From: Phnomibacter ginsenosidimutans
Lineage (GTDB): Bacteria; Bacteroidota; Bacteroidia; Chitinophagales; Chitinophagaceae
Direction: 5' to 3'
DNA: 64,000 bases
NCBI RefSeq assembly: GCF_009740285.1
Contig: NZ_CP046566.1
Span: forward strand, 1,418,501-1,482,500
The notes under the pieces: model-generated
The model's database searches: none
Seen by the model: the letters and a program-made list of their open reading frames with translations, nothing else
Told to the model about the DNA's origin: nothing
Translations under genes and position numbers: made by a program
Shown: positions 28,315-52,754 of the stretch, piece after piece
How the letters are laid out: every line of letters starts with the position of its first letter
Numbering within the stretch: the first letter of the stretch is position 1

Positions 28315-29858
28315 CTACACAGGAAAGCCTGCTTCCTTAAGTTCATTTAACTCATGTTCCGTGAATTTACCTTTTATTCTATTCATTTGTCGTGGACTTT
28401 CTCTTTTACGTTTTACCCAATGGTGTAATTTGATTGGCTCTCCATTTGTCAAAGTGATAGGAAACCATCGGCCTTCACTTTTTCTGTATGCTTTCCATTC
28501 AGCAGTTCTATCAACAGTGCCAGGATGCATCTTTCCCCAAACTGGCTTTTCGTGAAAATGAAATTCCCAAGCAAATTCAATGTCCTTAATTGTCTTATCG
28601 TCTAGCTTCTCCTTTTTTTTGATGTGCTTGAAAAATCTTGTTCTCCAATCCAATTTATTTGGATTTTCAGCTTTATACAAATCTTCAATTAATCTTGCTA
28701 TTACGTTTTCAACTGTTCTACTTGTATTAGCATAATCAAAACCTGTTTCTTCAATTCTTTTTCTTATGTCAAGTTTCTTGCCTTTTTTGTTTGCTTGTGA
28801 AATTCCAATTAACCAAGTCCCAAGCTTTTTGCCTTTGTAAGTGTATGATTGATTTTGTACTATTTTTTCGTTGTTAGCTATTGCGTCTTTCAACAGTTCA
28901 AGCCATTCTTGTACTATTAATTCTTCCCTTAATTTGTGGCCGTCTCCAAAATAAAATCCGACTGCTGTTAATTTGTCAATATGTTCTTGTGGCATTTTCA
29001 GTTCTGGATGCTTGTACAGGAGTTTTTGCTTAATGTACCAAGCATGTAAAACATGGTCTGCGTAATCTCTTTTAACTGTAAATGTTCCAAACTCTTCCTT
29101 GTATGCTTTAAGCCGTTCAAACATGTAGTCCCATTTTTGCAAATAGGCATCAGTAATCGTCAGGACATGGTTCTTATATTTCTTTCGGGGTTTGTTATCT
29201 GTAATTTCAAGGTTTCCTAATTCCCCAATTTCAGGTAGCTTAACTTTTTTGTTTCTTTTCCGTTCGGATTAACAGTATAGTTTACTTGATACTCAAAATT
29301 TTCAGTCGGTATTAAGCCATCTGCAAATAGTTTGTCAATATGTGCTTGTGTTACAAATTCAAGGTTAGGGTCAGAAAAATCAAGGAGAGGAGAAAAATAA
29401 TCTTTGAGTTGATTTAAAACTTTCATTCCAGCACTGTCTTGATTACTGAAATCAAGTAATAATGAACATTCTACATTGTAGAATAAACCTGTCTTGGTTA
29501 AATTGGAAGAGCCAGTAATAATTCTATTCTTAGCCCCTTCAAATAGGTAAACCTTTGGGTGATAAATAAAAATGTCAGAGTTGTAGATATAGGTTGAAAC
29601 TCCTAATTCAAGCAATAGTTCTAATGCTTCTTTTGATGTTATAAACTCGTTGCGTCCTACGAAGAATGTAATTTTCCGATTTTCAGAAATTGCTTGCTGA
29701 ATAAAAGGTTTTAACTCTAAAATACCTGGCTTGCGAATGAAAGCTACAAAAACTGTTATGTCCGTGAAAACAGGATTTTTAATAGACGAGCAAATGTAGT
29801 TGCCACAAGTTTCATTGTCGTCCTCATGAATACCGTGTCCTATAAATTCAACTATCAT
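28315..29858 (-). CDS. PLD-like nuclease fused to helicase-associated domains (frameshifted)
   Basis: About 514 residues when two frames are joined by adding one T to the T6 run at 29,245-29,250; the read-through is KETKKVKLPEIGELGNLEIT. The N-terminal part (about 1-180) is a phospholipase D-like domain with one HKD motif: His100 and Lys102 in IYHPKVYLF and the GSSN motif at 116-119. The C-terminal part has three stretches resembling helicase-associated (HA) domains, e.g. KLGTWLIGIS...LDIRKRIEETGFDY, each starting with a Trp and ending in GF. In relatives a DEAD-type helicase is normally part of such proteins; here none is present. The gene is clearly more A/T-rich than its surroundings, a sign of transfer. 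A defence or mobile-element role is inference. Confidence 0.7.
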
Positions 29859-32243: not shown

Positions 32244-35200
32244 TCAGGCGTTGAGTGCCGCTGCCATTTTGCGGATGCGTTCTTCCAGATTTTCGGAAGA
32301 CAGATTGTTGCGGTTGAGTCCGTCGGCAATAATGGGGAAAGAGAGTGGAGTAAACTTCTCCGGCCAGCGAATGATGATATCATGTTGCTGAATGCGCTGC
32401 AAGGCTTGTCGTAGCCGCACTTCTTCCATTTGTTGTTCGTACACTTCCTGATAGGCCTGCCGCAGCAGCAGGTTGTCGGGGTCAAAATCTTTAAACACTT
32501 TAAAAATCAGCGATGCTGATGCCTGCAGGTGCCGGGCTTTTTTTTGCTCACCGGGCATGCCCTGAAAAATGAGACCGCCAATCACGGCAATGTCTCTGAA
32601 TTTGCGCATGGCCATTTCTACATGGTTGGCGCTTTGCTGCATGGCCAAAAACAAATCTTCGGTGCTGAATAACGCATGCACATTGCTGTCGTCTACCGGT
32701 ATGGGTTTGTCGCTCAGCAGTTCAAAGCCATAATCATTCATGGCAATGGAAAAAGTAATGGGCATACTGCGGCTGATGCGGTAGGCCAGAATGGCACTCA
32801 TGGCTTCGTGTACGGCCCGACCTTCAAAGGGATACACCAGCAGGTGAAAGCCTTCTTTGCTTTCGTGGTGCTCTATCAGCAGCTCGTTGTTGCGGGGAAT
32901 GTGGGAGAGTTGGGATTGTAATTCGAAGAGGGGGATGAGGGCCTGGAGTTCGGGGGAAGTTTCTGCCTTTGCCCTCCTCTCCACCGGAGAGGGGCTGGGG
33001 TTGAGCAAATCATTGTCTTGTATTGCCCCCCTCTCCACCGGAGAGGGGCTGGGGGTGAGGCCGTTCTTCAAATGCTGTCCCTCATGTCTATTCCCCACAT
33101 ACTCCCTCCACCATTCCGGTCTTGCTTTTTGCAGTCTTTCCTGAATAGTCGCTACACTATCTATTGCTGCTAACCTGTTCCTGATTTTTTCTAAAACGGT
33201 AATTTGATTTTTTTCAATCTCACTGTTCCAGAATCGCATGATGCCGTAGCCATGTTCCGATAAGTGGCAGGCCCTGAAAAAATCTGCTTTGGCGTTGTCC
33301 GGGTCTCTATGCACTGAACCATCTAATTCAATGATGAGTTTTTTCTCGAGGCAAACAAAATCAGGAATGAAGAACAATACAGGGTGCTGTCTTCTGAATT
33401 TGTATCCATCCAGTTTTCTATTGCGCAGGTTTTGCCACAGTAGTTTTTCTGCAACGGTGGGCTCTTTGCGCATTTCTTTTGCATGCTTGAGCAGGGTAGG
33501 CCATTGCTCGGGGCTGGTGGTCATGTAGCCTGGTCTAGTCTTCTCTTCATTTGACCTCACCTCTTGCCCCTCTCCAAGGGAGAGGGGTAGAAGCGATTGC
33601 TTTTCAATCAATGACGCAGCCTCCCCAATCGTCCTTCTCAACACCATGCCCAAATTAGCAGTCAGGCTCATGCGGCCGCCCATCCAGCTGGGTACAATGG
33701 CTTTTTTCTTGCTGCTTTTGCGCACCATCACGGTCATGTCTTTCAGCTGTACCAGTTCGAGGTTGCGACCGGCCAGTGTAAACACATCGCCGGGGTCCAG
33801 CCGGCTGATAAACCATTCTTCAATATGACCCACATAGCCGCCGGTTACAAACTTTACCTTCATCATGGCATCGCTTACAATGGTGCCAATGTTCATGCGG
33901 TGGCGCAGTGCCAGTCTTCTGCTGGTTATTTTGTACACGCCTTCTATCACTTCCACTTTGCGGTACTCATCGTATTGCTGCAGGGCCTTGCCGCCTTCGG
34001 TAATGTGTAGCAATACCTGCCACCATTCCTCTTCCGTCATGGTTTGAAAGCACCAGGTACTTTGTACCATGGGCAGTATGTGCTCCGGCCGAAAGCCATC
34101 GCCTACGGCCAGCGTACACAAAAACTGACACAGCACATCAAAGCACAAAGCCAGCGGATCCTTGCTTTCCATTTCGCCATCCTCAATGGCGGTTTTGAGT
34201 GCCGCTGCCTCCACCAGTTCCAAGGCATGTGTGGGCAAAAAATACACGTTGCTCACTTCACCGGGTTGATGACCAGCCCGGCCAGCCCGCTGCAAAAAAC
34301 GAGACACACCTTTGGGTGAACCCACTTGTATCACCGTATCTACCGGACGAAAATCAACACCCAAATCGAGGCTGGCCGTGGCAACTACAGCTTTAAGTGT
34401 ATGGGTATGCAAAGCTTCTTCCACCCATAGGCGTAGCTCTTGTTCAATGCTGCCGTGGTGCAGTGCTATGGCTCCTGCCAACTGAGGGGCTACATCGAGC
34501 AGGGTTTGGTACCACCGCTCCGCCATCCCTCTTGTATTGATGAAGATGAGAGTGGTGTTGCTTCGCTCAATAATGGGCACCACTTTTTCAGCCAGCTTAA
34601 TGCCGAGGTGTCCAGCCCAGGGATATTTTTCAATCTCATCAGGAATGATGCTGTGCACGGCAATGTCTTTGCGCATTTGTGCTTTCACAATCACACCGGG
34701 TTGCTGCAAGGGGCGCAACAACACTTCACGGGCTTCATCGAGGTTGCCGATGGTGGCGGAGATACCCCAGAGTAATGGTTGATGGTTGCTGGTTGGTAGT
34801 TGGTAGGAGCCCTCACCCCCGCCTCTCCCTAAAGGGCGAGGAGCCAGGAATGTATCGTCTTTGTATTGCTGCAGGTGGCCGGCGGCGTATTGGCCTTGCA
34901 GGTAGGCAATGGCTAATTCAACTTGTACGCCACGTTTGCTGCCGAGCAGTTCATGCCATTCATCAACGGCTATTACTTTGAGATTGGTAAAAAGGATAGA
35001 TGGCCCTTCATGGCCAGTAGCAATTGCAGGCTTTCGGGGGTGATGATGAGCACTTCCGGCATTTGCTTTTTTTGCCGTGCTCTTTCGCTGGTCTCGGTGT
35101 CGCCATTGCGGATGCCTACCTGCCAGGGCAGACCAATGTCGGAGATAGCTTCCTGCATGGCACGACCCAAATCTTTGGCCAATGCCCGCAGTGGTGTAAT

Positions 35201-35461
35201 CCACAGCAATTGCAGTCCGTTGTTTTTTTGTTGCTGCCAATTGGTAGGATGCGCATCAATAAACTGAATGATGCTGCCGAGAAAAACAGAAAAGGTTTTA
35301 CCACAACCCGTTGGTGCATTAACGATACCGCTGTCGCCCCGCAGCATGTGTGCCCATGTTTCTTCTTGAAAGGCAAAGGGGGATAATGCTTTCCCCGCCA
35401 ACCATTGAGTGATGATGGCGGTGCCGGGGGAAGGCGTGATATGTGGCTGTTGGTTTTTCAC
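32244..35461 (-). CDS. Ligase-associated Lhr-like DEXH helicase with inserted DUF559 domain
   Basis: DNA repair helicase of about 1072 residues, longer than the roughly 820 usual for the group. Walker A is PTGCGKT (50-56) and motif II is VDEWHELLG. SATIGNLDEA and QRAGRAGHQPGEVS are helicase motifs III and VI. ASLDLGVDFRPVD is also typical. The two frames join if one A is added to the A5 run at 34,989-34,993. Two in-frame additions explain the excess length: about 25 residues at 34,776-34,855 and about 210 residues at 32,955-33,600 carrying a DUF559 nuclease-like domain. The conserved C-terminal part resumes at SPELQALIPLFELQSQL. It lies 27 bases beyond the ligase stop, in the same operon. Confidence 0.85.
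32972..33000. repeat. GGAGAGG palindrome, copy 1
   Basis: CCTCTCC ACC GGAGAGG at 32,976-32,992, followed by GGCTGGGG. It is inside the helicase reading frame (minus-strand peptide PSPSPVERR) and about 54 bases from copy 2 in the same orientation. Confidence 0.8.
33025..33060. repeat. GGAGAGG palindrome, copy 2 (inner arm of the DUF559 element)
   Basis: CCTCTCC ACC GGAGAGG at 33,030-33,046 followed by GGCTGGGGGTGAGG. On the minus strand the order is CCTCACCCCCAGCCCCTCTC(C). It encodes LTPSPSPVERG in the helicase frame. Confidence 0.8.
33555..33592. repeat. GGAGAGG palindrome, copy 3 (opposite arm of the DUF559 element)
   Basis: CCTCACCTCTTGCCCCTCTC(C) then AAG GGAGAGG, 33,555-33,585. It is inverted relative to copy 2, so the tails with CCTCACC point toward each other across the DUF559 region. 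On the minus strand it encodes LLPLSLGEGQEVRS. Confidence 0.8.
34776..34855. repeat. Solo palindrome plus word-run inserted in the helicase frame
   Basis: A GGTTGATGGTTGCTGGTTGG word-run (34,777-34,807) is followed by CCCTCACCCCCGCCTCTCCC and a degenerate partner arm (34,810-34,845). In the helicase frame it adds about 25 residues (LAPRPLGRGGGEGSYQLPTS) just before the conserved LLWGISATIGN, where relatives run on directly. Confidence 0.6.
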
Positions 35462-35488: not shown

Positions 35489-37120
35489 TTATTTGCTGCT
35501 GCTGTTGCCATACTGCTGCAACAATTGTTTCAAATCATCGAGGGTATTGATTTCTGAAGCTGGTTTGTCTTTGCGCCAGCGGTTGATGCGGGGAAAACGC
35601 AGTGCCACACCGCTTTTGTGCCGGTTGCTGGCGGCAATGCCTTCAAAAGCAATTTCAAAAACGAGTTCTGGTTTTACGGTTCTCACTGGGCCAAACTTTT
35701 CAATGGCATGTTTTTTTACAAAGGCATCCACTTCGGCAAATTCTTTATCAGTAAGGCCGCTGTAAGCTTTGGTGAATGATACCAGTTTATCTCCATCTCT
35801 TACAGCAAAAGTGTAATCGGTGTAGAGATTGCTCCGGCGGCCGTGGCCTTTTTGCGCATAAATCATCACGGCATCAATGGTGAGCGGCTCTATTTTCCAT
35901 TTCCACCAATCGCCTACTTTGCGGCCCGTTTGGTACACACTGTTGCAGCGCTTCAGCATCAGACCTTCTGCCTTTTGGTCGCGGCTGTAGCGGCGTTGTT
36001 CGGTGAGTGATGTCCAGTCGTCTGCTGTTACAACGGGTGACATAAACAAGCCCGGGAGCGGATGTTCTTGCAATAGTTTTTCCAGCAAGGCACGTCTTTC
36101 ACTGAGCGGCGTTTGGCGAATATCTTCACCTTTCCATTCCAGCAAATCGTAGGCAATAAAACCCACTGGTGATTGTTGCAATAATTTTTTCGATACTATT
36201 TTACGGTTGATACGTGTTTGCAGTTGTGCAAATGGACCAATGTGTTCGGGAATGCTGTTGGCATTGGGTTGTAAGGCTACTATTTCACCATCCAGCACAG
36301 TGCCGGCAGGCAATTTTTTTTCCCAGCCATGAAACTCCGGCAAATGATCGGTGAGCAATTCTTCGCCTCGGCTCCAGATGTACAAGGCATCCCGCACAAT
36401 CACTTGCCCACGGATGCCGTCCCATTTCCATTCGGCCTGCCAATCGGTAATGGGGCCAAGGCTTTCAGGTTCCTCTCCTAAAGGATACGCCAGGTAAAAC
36501 GGATACGGTTTGCTGCTGTCGGCAGTGGTATCGCCGCTGAGTACCAGCTCCGCAAAAGAGGTATTTGATGGATCCCAGTTGCCGCTGATGCGATGGGCCA
36601 AAACGGATGCATCAATGCCCGTGGCTTTTTGCAACGCATTCACCATGGTTTGCTGGCTTACGCCAATGCGAAAACCACCGGTGATGAGTTTGTTGAACAC
36701 AAAGCAAGCATCAAAATCCATTTGCTGCCAATGCTGAAGGATAAACGCTTTTCGGGTTTCTTCATCTGTTTTTTGCAGCGATATGAAAGAAGCAATGAGC
36801 TGTGATAAGCTGGGTAACGCATGTTGTATTGCTGCTGTGTTTTTTTGCGTCGCCAGCAACGCAATGGTTTCTGCCAGATCGCCCACGGTATGGTAGCATT
36901 CTTCAAACAGCCAGGCAGGTGTTTGTGTGAGTTCAATGCAGCAATCGGTAAGTATGCGGGTGTTGACAAAACGCTTGGGCCTGCGTCCGCTGAATATGGC
37001 AATGGTCCATACTTTATCGGCGTCATCGGCAGTTTGGAAGTACTGCAACAATGCCTGCAACTTCTCGTTGGTTTTGGTGCTGCTGCCCACTTCCTGTACC
37101 AGTTGTGCAAATGCTTTCAT
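35489..37120 (-). CDS. ATP-dependent DNA ligase
   Basis: 543 residues. The adenylated lysine is Lys232 in AEWKWDGIRGQ (motif I, KxDGxR). Motif III is in GFIAYDLLEWKGEDI, motif IV in KAEGLMLKRCNS, and motif V in WWKWKIEPLTIDAVMIYAQ. The N-terminal 200 residues are the helical DNA-binding domain, and an OB domain ends the protein. It seals nicks using ATP and is the namesake of the ligase-associated repair set. Its ATG overlaps the exonuclease stop by 4 bases, so the two are translationally coupled. Confidence 0.95.
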   Translation of the reverse strand: MKAFAQLVQEVGSSTKTNEKLQALLQYFQTADDADKVWTIAIFSGRRPKRFVNTRILTDCCIELTQTPAWLFEECYHTVGDLAETIALLATQKNTAAIQHALPSLSQLIASFISLQKTDEETRKAFILQHWQQMDFDACFVFNKLITGGFRIGVSQQTMVNALQKATGIDASVLAHRISGNWDPSNTSFAELVLSGDTTADSSKPYPFYLAYPLGEEPESLGPITDWQAEWKWDGIRGQVIVRDALYIWSRGEELLTDHLPEFHGWEKKLPAGTVLDGEIVALQPNANSIPEHIGPFAQLQTRINRKIVSKKLLQQSPVGFIAYDLLEWKGEDIRQTPLSERRALLEKLLQEHPLPGLFMSPVVTADDWTSLTEQRRYSRDQKAEGLMLKRCNSVYQTGRKVGDWWKWKIEPLTIDAVMIYAQKGHGRRSNLYTDYTFAVRDGDKLVSFTKAYSGLTDKEFAEVDAFVKKHAIEKFGPVRTVKPELVFEIAFEGIAASNRHKSGVALRFPRINRWRKDKPASEINTLDDLKQLLQQYGNSSSK

Positions 37121-38136
37121 GCGGCACCTCCTGTTGTTTCAGTGGCATCTTCTTCGCCGCCGTATTGCGTTTGCACGGCTTCGCTCCAGGTGTTTTTTTC
37201 TTCCCGCAGGTAGCGGCTAAAGCTGTCGGTAAATCCGTGGGTGCTGTACACTTTTTCAGCACCGCACAATTGCACCGCTTGCAGCAGCGACGGCCAATCT
37301 GCATGATCGCTGAGTACAAAACCGGCATCCGAATTGTTGCGGCGTTTGTTGCCCCGCACCTGCATCCAACCGCTGCAGTTGGCATCGCGGTAGCGGCCTG
37401 CTTTTTTCAGCCATGCAGAACCCGCAGCACTGGGTGGCGCAATCACAATCTGTCCTTCAATATCCGCTTTGTTGGTATCTGCTGTAATGCGGTGGCATTC
37501 GGGCAATACAATGCCATCGGCTTGCAATGCTTCATTGGCATTGGCAATGGCACCATGTAACCAAATGCGCAAGCCTGTTGCCGCCAGGGCCCGTTGTATA
37601 CGTTGCGCTTTACCCAGCGAATACGCATAAAAAACGGACGTGTATTGCTGCTGATGATTATGTGCTACCCATGCACACATCTCGTTGTACACTTGCTGTT
37701 GCGGTTGCCATTGGTAAATGGGCAGACCAAACGTGCATTCTGTAACCATGTGGGTGCAGGCCACGGGGTGCCAGGCAGTGCTCAGGCCATCATCTTCCAG
37801 TTTGTAATCGCCGGTGATGAGCCATGTTTCGCCATGCGCTGCTACACGCACCATGCTGCTGCCCACAATATGCCCTGCGGGAAACAAGGTGAGCTCTACA
37901 TCGTGTATGCGCATTGGTTCTTCCCACCCAATGGTTTGCAGGGCAATGTCTTGCCCGAGGCGCTGGCGCAGCATGCCTTTGCTGAGGTGATGGCTGAGGT
38001 AGCGGGCCGAACCCCAACGGGCATGGTCGCTGTGGGCATGCGTAATAACTGCCCTTTGCACCGGCCGCCACGGGTCGATGTAAAAATCGCCGGCGGGGCA
38101 GTACAAACCTTTATCGGTAAATTGAATGAGCGACAT
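37117..38136 (-). CDS. Ligase-associated exonuclease, metallo-beta-lactamase fold
   Basis: 339 residues from the ATG at 38,136; the frame extends to 38,187 without domain content. The metal motif is ITHAHSDHARWG (His33, His35, Asp37, His38), with more ligands in LITGDYKLEDDG and FVLSDHADW, and THGF near the end. This pattern places it with SNM1/Pso2-like and CPSF-type nucleases of the beta-lactamase fold. It is the first gene of the exonuclease-ligase-helicase operon, which likely repairs double-strand ends or crosslinks; the exact lesion is not established. Confidence 0.9.
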   Translation of the reverse strand: MSLIQFTDKGLYCPAGDFYIDPWRPVQRAVITHAHSDHARWGSARYLSHHLSKGMLRQRLGQDIALQTIGWEEPMRIHDVELTLFPAGHIVGSSMVRVAAHGETWLITGDYKLEDDGLSTAWHPVACTHMVTECTFGLPIYQWQPQQQVYNEMCAWVAHNHQQQYTSVFYAYSLGKAQRIQRALAATGLRIWLHGAIANANEALQADGIVLPECHRITADTNKADIEGQIVIAPPSAAGSAWLKKAGRYRDANCSGWMQVRGNKRRNNSDAGFVLSDHADWPSLLQAVQLCGAEKVYSTHGFTDSFSRYLREEKNTWSEAVQTQYGGEEDATETTGGAA

Positions 38137-38255
38137 GCCGTGTTCACTTGTTGTTTCGAAGAAAGCGCATAAAACAACAGCGAACAAAGCAAATTGTTAG
38201 GACTGGGGTAGGGTCGTTTTTTGGGGAGAAATATCTGAAGTAGTTTGAAAAGAGG

Positions 38256-52472: not shown

Positions 52473-52754
52473 TGTAGAAGGAGGCTGTTGGCTCCGGTCT
52501 TCTGACTTTCCCGACTTTACCTCTCCCGGCCTCTCCAAAGGAGAGGGGACGTAGGGTGGGCGGTTGCTTTTTTGTCTCCGGACTCTAAACTTTCGGACTT
52601 TCCATCTTCCGGACTTTACCTCACCCGGCCTCTCCAAAGGAGAGGGGACGTAGAGTGGGTGGTTGCCTTTGCTCTCCAGACTCCAGACTTTCGGACTTTC
52701 CGTCTTCAGGACTTTCCGACTTCCCCGACTTTCGGTCTTCCCGTCTCTCGAGTG
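52473..52754. repeat. GACTTTC word-run region with two GGAGAGG palindromes
   Basis: Words like GGACTTTCCGTCTTC and CGACTTTC recur, with about ten GACTTT occurrences between 52,500 and 52,850. Two GGAGAGG palindromes (CCTCTCC AAA GGAGAGG at 52,530-52,546 and 52,629-52,645) are each followed by GACGTAGnGTGGGnGGTTGC, so about 60 bases are duplicated. No gene is present; the GNAT frame remains open through it by chance or by design. Confidence 0.7.

Follow-up and report, generated by a model that had tools for sequence, protein, structure and literature searches.

A DUF559 nuclease gene with paired hairpin ends, inserted in frame in a repair helicase gene, as a probable mobile element

A 64,000-nucleotide stretch of the Phnomibacter ginsenosidimutans genome (hereafter the window) carries on its minus strand a ligase-associated, Lhr-like helicase gene that is interrupted in frame by a DUF559 nuclease gene. 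We consider it probable (about 0.78), from sequence comparison, that this insert is a mobile, unspliced, in-frame nuclease element, composed of the DUF559 gene and two hairpin ends that bound it. On our best reading, such an element would consist of a Vsr/EDxHD-type PD-(D/E)XK nuclease gene and two usually inverted, C-rich hairpins with a tail, and would persist in one of two settings: intergenic DNA, where it has a short frame to itself, or a linker of a conserved enzyme, where it is in frame with the host. A first-pass annotation of the same DNA had already proposed a small mobile unit that preserves the reading frame, and this proposal is supported by the occurrence of empty and filled alleles, by the paired hairpins and by the many host genes described below.

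The host helicase gene and its insert

The window lies in a single-contig genome of 4.37 Mb. The minus-strand repair cluster contains an ATP-dependent ligase (35489-37120) and the Lhr-like helicase; a metallo-beta-lactamase match in the same cluster (37117-38187) is weak and falls below its cut-off. The main open frame of the helicase (32244-35240, minus strand, 998 aa) contains WH_Lhr, Helicase_C, DUF559 and DEAD_assoc modules, with DUF559 flanked by WH_Lhr (residues 351-515) and DEAD_assoc (residues 781-967). Compared with the genomes G002 and G006 of the same genus, the window helicase has one base fewer at ~34980-35006, near a T run, which places its DEAD part in another frame. Consequently, the first ~78 codons of the 998-aa frame, which precede the frameshift, do not read in the helicase frame, and the 5' part of the gene, which includes the DEAD domain, is split off at 34973-35461 on the minus strand (assigned by its open frame, family scan and genome comparison). 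The frameshift may be either a real mutation or a sequence error, and because of it the window copy of the element may be located in a dying gene. The region had originally been described as stop-free and in frame with the helicase; this is true of the insert, but the helicase itself is frameshifted upstream. Elsewhere in the window, two adjoining minus-strand frames (28315-29858) appear helicase-associated- and phospholipase-D-like, by eye only.

The family scan places DUF559 (PF04480) at residues 585-690 of the 998-aa frame, with an E-value of 3.7e-33 and 114 bits (cut-off 20.6). The entire insert, between the host sequences ...MVLRRTIGEAASLIEKQ and SPELQALIPLF..., occupies approximately 32958-33596 on the minus strand, i.e., 639 nt or 213 codons with no stop; its bounds are derived from orthologues without the insert and its ends are approximate. 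In these orthologues, LRxT... is nearly directly joined to ...ELxxLxPLF. Only DUF559 and, below its own cut-off, MTES_1575 were matched in the family scan of the insert, and no transposase family was matched in the window helicase protein.

The end on the N-terminal side of the host protein (33555-33587, minus strand) has its hairpin outermost (33567-33587) and a CCTCACC tail directed inward. That on the C-terminal side (33028-33060, plus strand) likewise has an outermost hairpin (33028-33048) and an inward tail (33049-33060), and a tandem second copy of this end, with its hairpin at 32974-32994, is located 54 nt further out (32974-33005, plus strand). All of these were defined by hairpin and repeat analysis. 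The tails are of the GGTGAGG type, each pointing toward the nuclease, and the inverted arms including tails (33028-33060 and 33555-33587) are 33 nt in length and 82% complementary; read by eye, the end sequences are CTGGGGGTGAGG and CCTCACCTCTTG. With three or fewer mismatches, CCCCTCTCCNNNGGAGAGGGG matches the window at five places, of which three fall within this element; 100 shuffles of the window give no match. Between the ends are the nuclease domain (33168-33488, minus strand), assigned by family scan, alignments, a model and fold matches, and, ahead of it, a leader peptide region (33489-33554, minus strand; GYMTTSPEQWPTLL), recognised by frame comparison, which by eye resembles that of many in-frame elements. 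The first-pass annotation had recognised a DUF559 domain between inverted palindromes, as the PF04480 match and the two outer hairpins confirm, and had given the 21-nt arms as identical at 18 of 21 positions, the same value as obtained on recomputation. Its span for the element included these hairpins and the nuclease, but the insert is wider and the tandem hairpin had been omitted.

The same helicase gene contains a second, hairpin-only in-frame insert (FLAPRPLGRGGGEGS) at 34806-34850 on the minus strand, with approximate ends. By comparison with the same-genus genomes, it is present in G000 and G002 and absent from G006 and G003.

Among 30 helicase loci, including that of the window genome, 4 are filled, 11 are empty and 15 were not parsed by the motif. 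The filled loci (the window genome, G002, G003 and G006) all belong to one genus. Helicase matches in the other relatives listed skip query residues ~540-760, and their frames are ~756-877 aa unless cut by a contig end. The initial claim that relatives lack the domain is therefore valid for most of those seen, as in the 11 empty loci, but three genomes of the same genus share the insert.

The nuclease domain

The catalytic-type residues of the domain (RRQ, D, E.DG..H) are invariant or nearly so in sets of 24 and 50 sequences that include the window copy, and the RRQ...D...E.D...H positions are among the 12 invariant columns in the 24 sequences. The dN/dS values are 0.06-0.14 in close pairs (0.09 and 0.11 for the window copy versus those of loci L082 and L084, respectively) and reach 0.40 in distant, saturated pairs. 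As judged from these ratios, DUF559 is under purifying selection in close pairs.

An AF2 model of window positions 33111-33512 has a mean pLDDT of 87. Its best PDB matches are 3hrl (TM 0.89) and the homing endonuclease I-Bth0305I (3r3p, TM 0.78), both by target length, with Vsr further down the list. A model of a LeuRS with its insert, built with ten sequences, reached a mean pLDDT of 57.8 and was set aside. From the modelled fold, the DUF559 of the element is probably a DNA-cutting enzyme. I-Bth0305I is encoded by a phage group I intron, and YcjD is presumably a relative of DUF559. According to the accessible part of one report, a Caulobacter DUF559 protein (VsrA) is responsible for an SOS response in cells without a cytosine methyltransferase (PMC12907096).

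Hairpin ends as part of the element

A C-rich hairpin with its tail flanks 65 of 111 DUF559 loci on both sides, at a distance of no more than 300 bases, compared to 1 of 1680 control windows drawn from the same loci (9 of 120 loci near contig ends were dropped), under a hairpin rule that was loosened twice after inspection of the data, as arms of at least 7 missed the Flavobacteriia ends with their 5-base arms. Under longer-arm rules the enrichment was 30-fold and 18-fold. The question raised in the first-pass annotation, whether the palindromes are tied to DUF559 elsewhere, is thus answered affirmatively. An end unit on any side accompanies 89 of the 111 loci versus 25 of the 1680 control windows, and 22 loci have none on either side by the rule used. 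Among the 65 both-sided loci, 38 have outward-facing tails and 14 inward-facing ones, in 7 both tails face in one direction, and 6 are undecided, such that the inward orientation of the window element is a minority form.

In a set of 165 elements, from which matches below 40 bits and duplicate sequences were dropped, 109 have hairpins on both sides and 56 do not. The left end and the reverse-complemented right end have a similarity of 0.452 within an element as opposed to 0.221 between elements (0 of 5000 permutations, n=109), and, for elements at different sites, end similarity increases with nuclease identity (r 0.39, 0 of 1000 permutations); the permutation tests ignore relatedness, several loci being orthologues and two (L082 and L145) representing one place twice. 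Identical hairpins are present at both ends of 20 of the 109 elements, versus 0.8%.

Every codon phase is represented among the ends: across 78 labelled elements, the distribution over the three phases is 34/29/15 for the left end and 28/40/10 for the right. The proportion of end units that are stop-free in all three frames (82 of 218) is in modest excess over that of control 40-mers (404 of 2199). Since the ends are paired within the element and read in all codon phases, they are, on this sequence evidence, kept as DNA rather than as peptide.

Host genes and distribution

DUF559 was detected in 25 of 59 relatives and in 222 of 392 genomes of the same phylum; by hand count, approximately 50 of the ~150 DUF559 entries listed for the latter are in frames of at least 300 aa. 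The scan of named genomes contributed 80 loci, kept from at least 580 confirmed ones. Among the 120 loci from relatives and named genomes, 78 have at least 110 further residues on one side of the domain, and a few of these (e.g., L096 and L111) resemble ordinary C-terminal domains. In-frame cases were catalogued via open frames, and "in frame" is therefore partly so by construction.

The hosts identified by family scan include LeuRS, MetH, AroC, MetRS, RecG, UvrC, PriA, HisF and IleRS. Further hosts identified in this manner are a UvrD-like protein, a B12-dependent CoA mutase with MeaB (IcmF-like), adenine deaminase, CinA and UroD, as well as a SpoU methylase, HPPK, a class I synthetase, HsdR and M23; TruB and another IcmF site were recognised by eye. 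One LeuRS host contains two DUF559 modules (TIGR00396, 904 bits, cut-off 548) and is the sole listed LeuRS gene of its genome. In genomes G022, G016 and G035, the insert-bearing LeuRS is the only match to the N-terminal LeuRS profile among the matches listed. The LeuRS of G035 (L087) shows a multiplied unit, in which DUF559 is flanked on either side by several hairpins and by recurring blocks of peptide. In another LeuRS (L293 of G058, 1120 aa), a different long in-frame insert, EndoU/barnase-like by eye only, occupies the DUF559 site. All four HisF cases have an N-terminal nuclease, and in one of them, L205, the left end contains stops, so it is not translated there.

In-frame DUF559 occurs mostly in Bacteroidota and also in Proteobacteria, named strains included. 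Two alphaproteobacterial copies are in PriA (L157 by family scan and L180 by clustering), and that of the gammaproteobacterium Stagnimonas aquatica (L177) is in MetH. A Chloroflexi record (L173) contains DUF559 in a 1133-aa frame. The records of named strains, namely Mucilaginibacter sp. OK268 (L147), Stagnimonas aquatica, Flavobacterium cucumis (L167) and Leeuwenhoekiella parthenopeia (L182), present the same arrangement, and an assembly artefact was ruled out on these grounds.

The intergenic class, in short frames, comprises 56 of the 165 elements. When compared with the known in-frame host proteins, none of the short-frame elements has matches on both sides except L189, whose matches are to a second DUF559 copy, and a few have a match on a single side. 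In the 12 short-frame loci that were printed with their flanks, the left and right frames look by eye like different genes. No gene-breaking copy was seen, as judged against the listed in-frame host proteins only, which is expected if such copies are lost. Both kinds of location envisaged for further copies, in varied host genes and between genes, were thus found.

Copies and solo hairpins in the same genome

The P. ginsenosidimutans genome contains two DUF559 in total. The second (L113, C1:150400-158700) is free-standing, lies between trpE and trpG and is flanked by direct repeats of the hairpin. Free-standing copies at trpE/trpG are also present in G002 and G003 (L101 and L102), where the two nearest ends are inverted. 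The hairpin core CCTCTCCNNNGGAGAGG occurs at 14 sites in the genome, 3 of them within the window element. Hairpins with the same core are found in the window at 52528-52548 and 52627-52647, 99 bases apart, both genomic DUF559 being elsewhere. The LeuRS gene of this genome (L295, C1:3652500-3658000) has, by eye, a short hairpin-like in-frame insert (SLYSPTGGQGAYICG) just before KMSKS.

Gain, loss and remnants

The nuclease tree shows no fewer than 38 switches of host-site label among its 103 labelled rows, with the 'short' (56) and 'other' (7) rows left uncounted; 87 of the 162 inner branches are weakly supported, and L197, which bears the label LeuRS_A, belongs to a different class I synthetase. 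Copies at MetH site 1 of Flavobacterium (L167 and L171) and at MetH site 3 of genomes G501 and G470 form one clade (98, starred). In the latter two genomes, MetH site 1 is empty, and a unit with 74-79% identity is present at another MetH site.

Of 81 Flavobacterium genomes, 76 have a match, and site 1 is occupied in 9 MetH genes. It is empty in three genomes whose host sequence is 92-98% identical to the F. cucumis MetH gene; these carry instead a linker such as IEASKDGKSSSAGK. In a host tree of 32 loci, taken by match rank from the 76 genomes, filled and empty states switch at least 8 times. The filled MetH genes have their host linker partly replaced. The LeuRS A and MetH 1 sites recur, and some of the presences may therefore reflect old vertical inheritance followed by losses.

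The 61 Mucilaginibacter genomes yielded 20 helicase loci, of which 4 hold the full element, one (L312) both ends without the nuclease, one (L311) the right end alone, and 14 neither end. The linker concerned is the site of the hairpin-only insert of the window, and Mucilaginibacter sp. OK268 has a full element in this equivalent position. At the same linker, four other loci (L315, L316, L320 and L324) are longer and repeat-like by eye. On account of these longer linkers in other Mucilaginibacter species, the Lhr linker may be a general landing place.

Alignment of orthologues had been put forward in the first-pass annotation as a means of defining the insertion ends and any target duplication; it provided the bounds of the insert, but a target duplication was not evident by eye in Flavobacterium or Mucilaginibacter, where the junctions differ between species. 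The opposing case that it had envisaged, in which all orthologues carry the domain and an empty allele does not exist, is at variance with the 11 empty alleles in 30 helicase loci and with the filled and empty close sisters.

Alternative explanations and a possible mechanism

In principle, the hairpins could be the mobile part, REP- or RPE-like and moved by other means, spreading independently in frame, with DUF559 as a passenger trapped between two copies or as a later inserter. Such a view would accommodate the hairpin-only in-frame copies (in the window helicase, before KMSKS in the LeuRS of the same genome and in the LeuRS of G022), the 14 hairpin sites versus only two DUF559, and the minority status of the tails-inward form; intragenic REPs are known in repair and tRNA-synthetase genes, as the accessible text of one paper describes (PMC3733652). 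We nevertheless deem it unlikely, as the two ends of one element match each other and track the nuclease, and the two-ended, nuclease-free remnant L312 is found at a site where sisters hold the full unit and so looks like decay rather than a precursor. Ordinary domain accretion, wherein a Vsr-like nuclease was fused to a repair helicase and kept for a host function, would agree with the purifying selection on DUF559, with the number of DNA repair proteins among the hosts (Lhr, RecG, UvrC, PriA and UvrD/AddA-like) and with the in vivo effect of Caulobacter VsrA, in so far as the available text reports it (PMC12907096). It is very improbable, since the same unit resides in LeuRS, MetRS, IleRS, MetH, AroC, HisF and IcmF, in which a role for a nuclease is not evident, close sister species are without the unit, and the hairpin ends, whichever frame they are read in, are conserved at the DNA level. 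A simple domain fusion was rejected in view of the unrelated hosts and empty close sisters.

A third possibility is that intein splicing, intron splicing or translational bypassing eliminates the insert and leaves a normal mature host protein. The location of the insert in essential enzymes, for instance in the sole LeuRS gene listed for each of G022, G016 and G035, might suggest this, and the hairpins could shape the mRNA. We give this very little credence: the protein scans list no intein or intron family, and the catalogued inserts maintain an open frame continuous with that of the host, as removal would not need (although they were found by open frames). The short-frame elements, apart from L189, do not have halves of a known host gene on both sides, and flanks vary among the elements. 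An intein was rejected, with no intein family among the families listed for 23 proteins (for two of them, the first 25 families), in line with the earlier observation that intein splice motifs are lacking.

For the preferred reading, a mobile nuclease element retained in the protein, we envisage the following course. The nuclease, which would be the driver of insertion, would nick or cut the empty allele or hairpin sequences, or DNA close to these, and repair of the break would copy the unit in, either in a homing-like manner or by homing into resident solo hairpins. Selection would favour in-frame landings in linkers, and out-of-frame landings in genes would be lost. In-frame copies would be translated through and retained as an unspliced internal domain of the host protein, with the host gene supplying promoter, start and stop, such that the element would not easily be lost. 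Eventually, the unit would decay to hairpin scars.

We are inclined to regard the element as representing a new class of bacterial mobile element: a paired-hairpin lineage of Vsr-type nucleases specialised for conserved, often essential enzymes, with ends readable in multiple frames, no start or stop of its own in those locations, a permanent existence as an internal domain, and hairpin scars that become protein. Mobile DNA that is not removed by splicing would be expected to be kept out of genes; the element seems to have solved this by being tolerable as protein, and it sits in genes that a cell can hardly lose. If correct, this would account for the odd DUF559 domains in synthetases, methionine synthase and helicases, and would plausibly indicate what drives at least one kind of palindrome found in frame in bacterial genes. 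The inserts would also serve as a natural experiment in the incorporation of large insertions into folded enzymes, and the question of what moves intragenic palindromes would become testable.

Comparison with known systems

Inteins with homing endonucleases place a nuclease in frame in conserved essential enzymes, with a patchy distribution and recurrent sites. The DUF559 element is similar in all of these respects, but no splicing domain was found in it, its DNA hairpins are read in three frames, and it is situated in linkers. I-Bth0305I, an EDxHD/Vsr-like homing endonuclease, and the DUF559 protein 3hrl share the same nuclease fold, and, as is characteristic of homing elements, close relatives differ here in whether a given site is occupied or empty. 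A LAGLIDADG homing endonuclease can be fused in frame to the fungal mitochondrial rps3 gene (PMC7902536), likewise a homing endonuclease within a host protein gene; that case involves another nuclease family and a single organellar gene, and paired hairpin ends are not described in the available portion of that report.

The accessible text of the PD-(D/E)XK superfamily paper that names YcjD (PMC1189080) has no word beginning with 'palindrom', and in titles and the opening lines of abstracts, mostly from outside subscription journals and bioRxiv preprints, no work on DUF559 with palindromes or mobility was found. Within this part of the literature, mostly non-subscription, we found no prior description of a nuclease unit, bounded by paired hairpins, that recurs in frame in numerous conserved enzymes.

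Rickettsia palindromic elements (RPE), of ~150 bp, are inserted in frame in unrelated genes and translated within the protein, according to the accessible part of their description (PMC10969869). Palindromic in-frame insertion in genes is thus common to RPE and the DUF559 element. RPE are short and have a conserved RPE peptide, whereas the window element is 639 nt in length and has a nuclease, and ends of its kind occur in three codon phases. The same portion of that description names no nuclease, in contrast to the present element, in which the nuclease lies between paired ends in several phyla.

REPtrons consist of tagged hairpins, often close and opposite, that flank a RAYT gene (PMC3733652, in the text available). 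Like the DUF559 element, they thus combine tagged hairpins with a dedicated DNA-processing enzyme, and intragenic copies are reported there in repair and tRNA-synthetase genes. The RAYT is an HUH tyrosine transposase, whereas the enzyme here is a PD-(D/E)XK Vsr-like nuclease and the whole unit is in frame. The REPtron tag is GTAG or CGTC; the ends of the window element, by eye without such a tag, bear instead a GGTGAGG-like tail.
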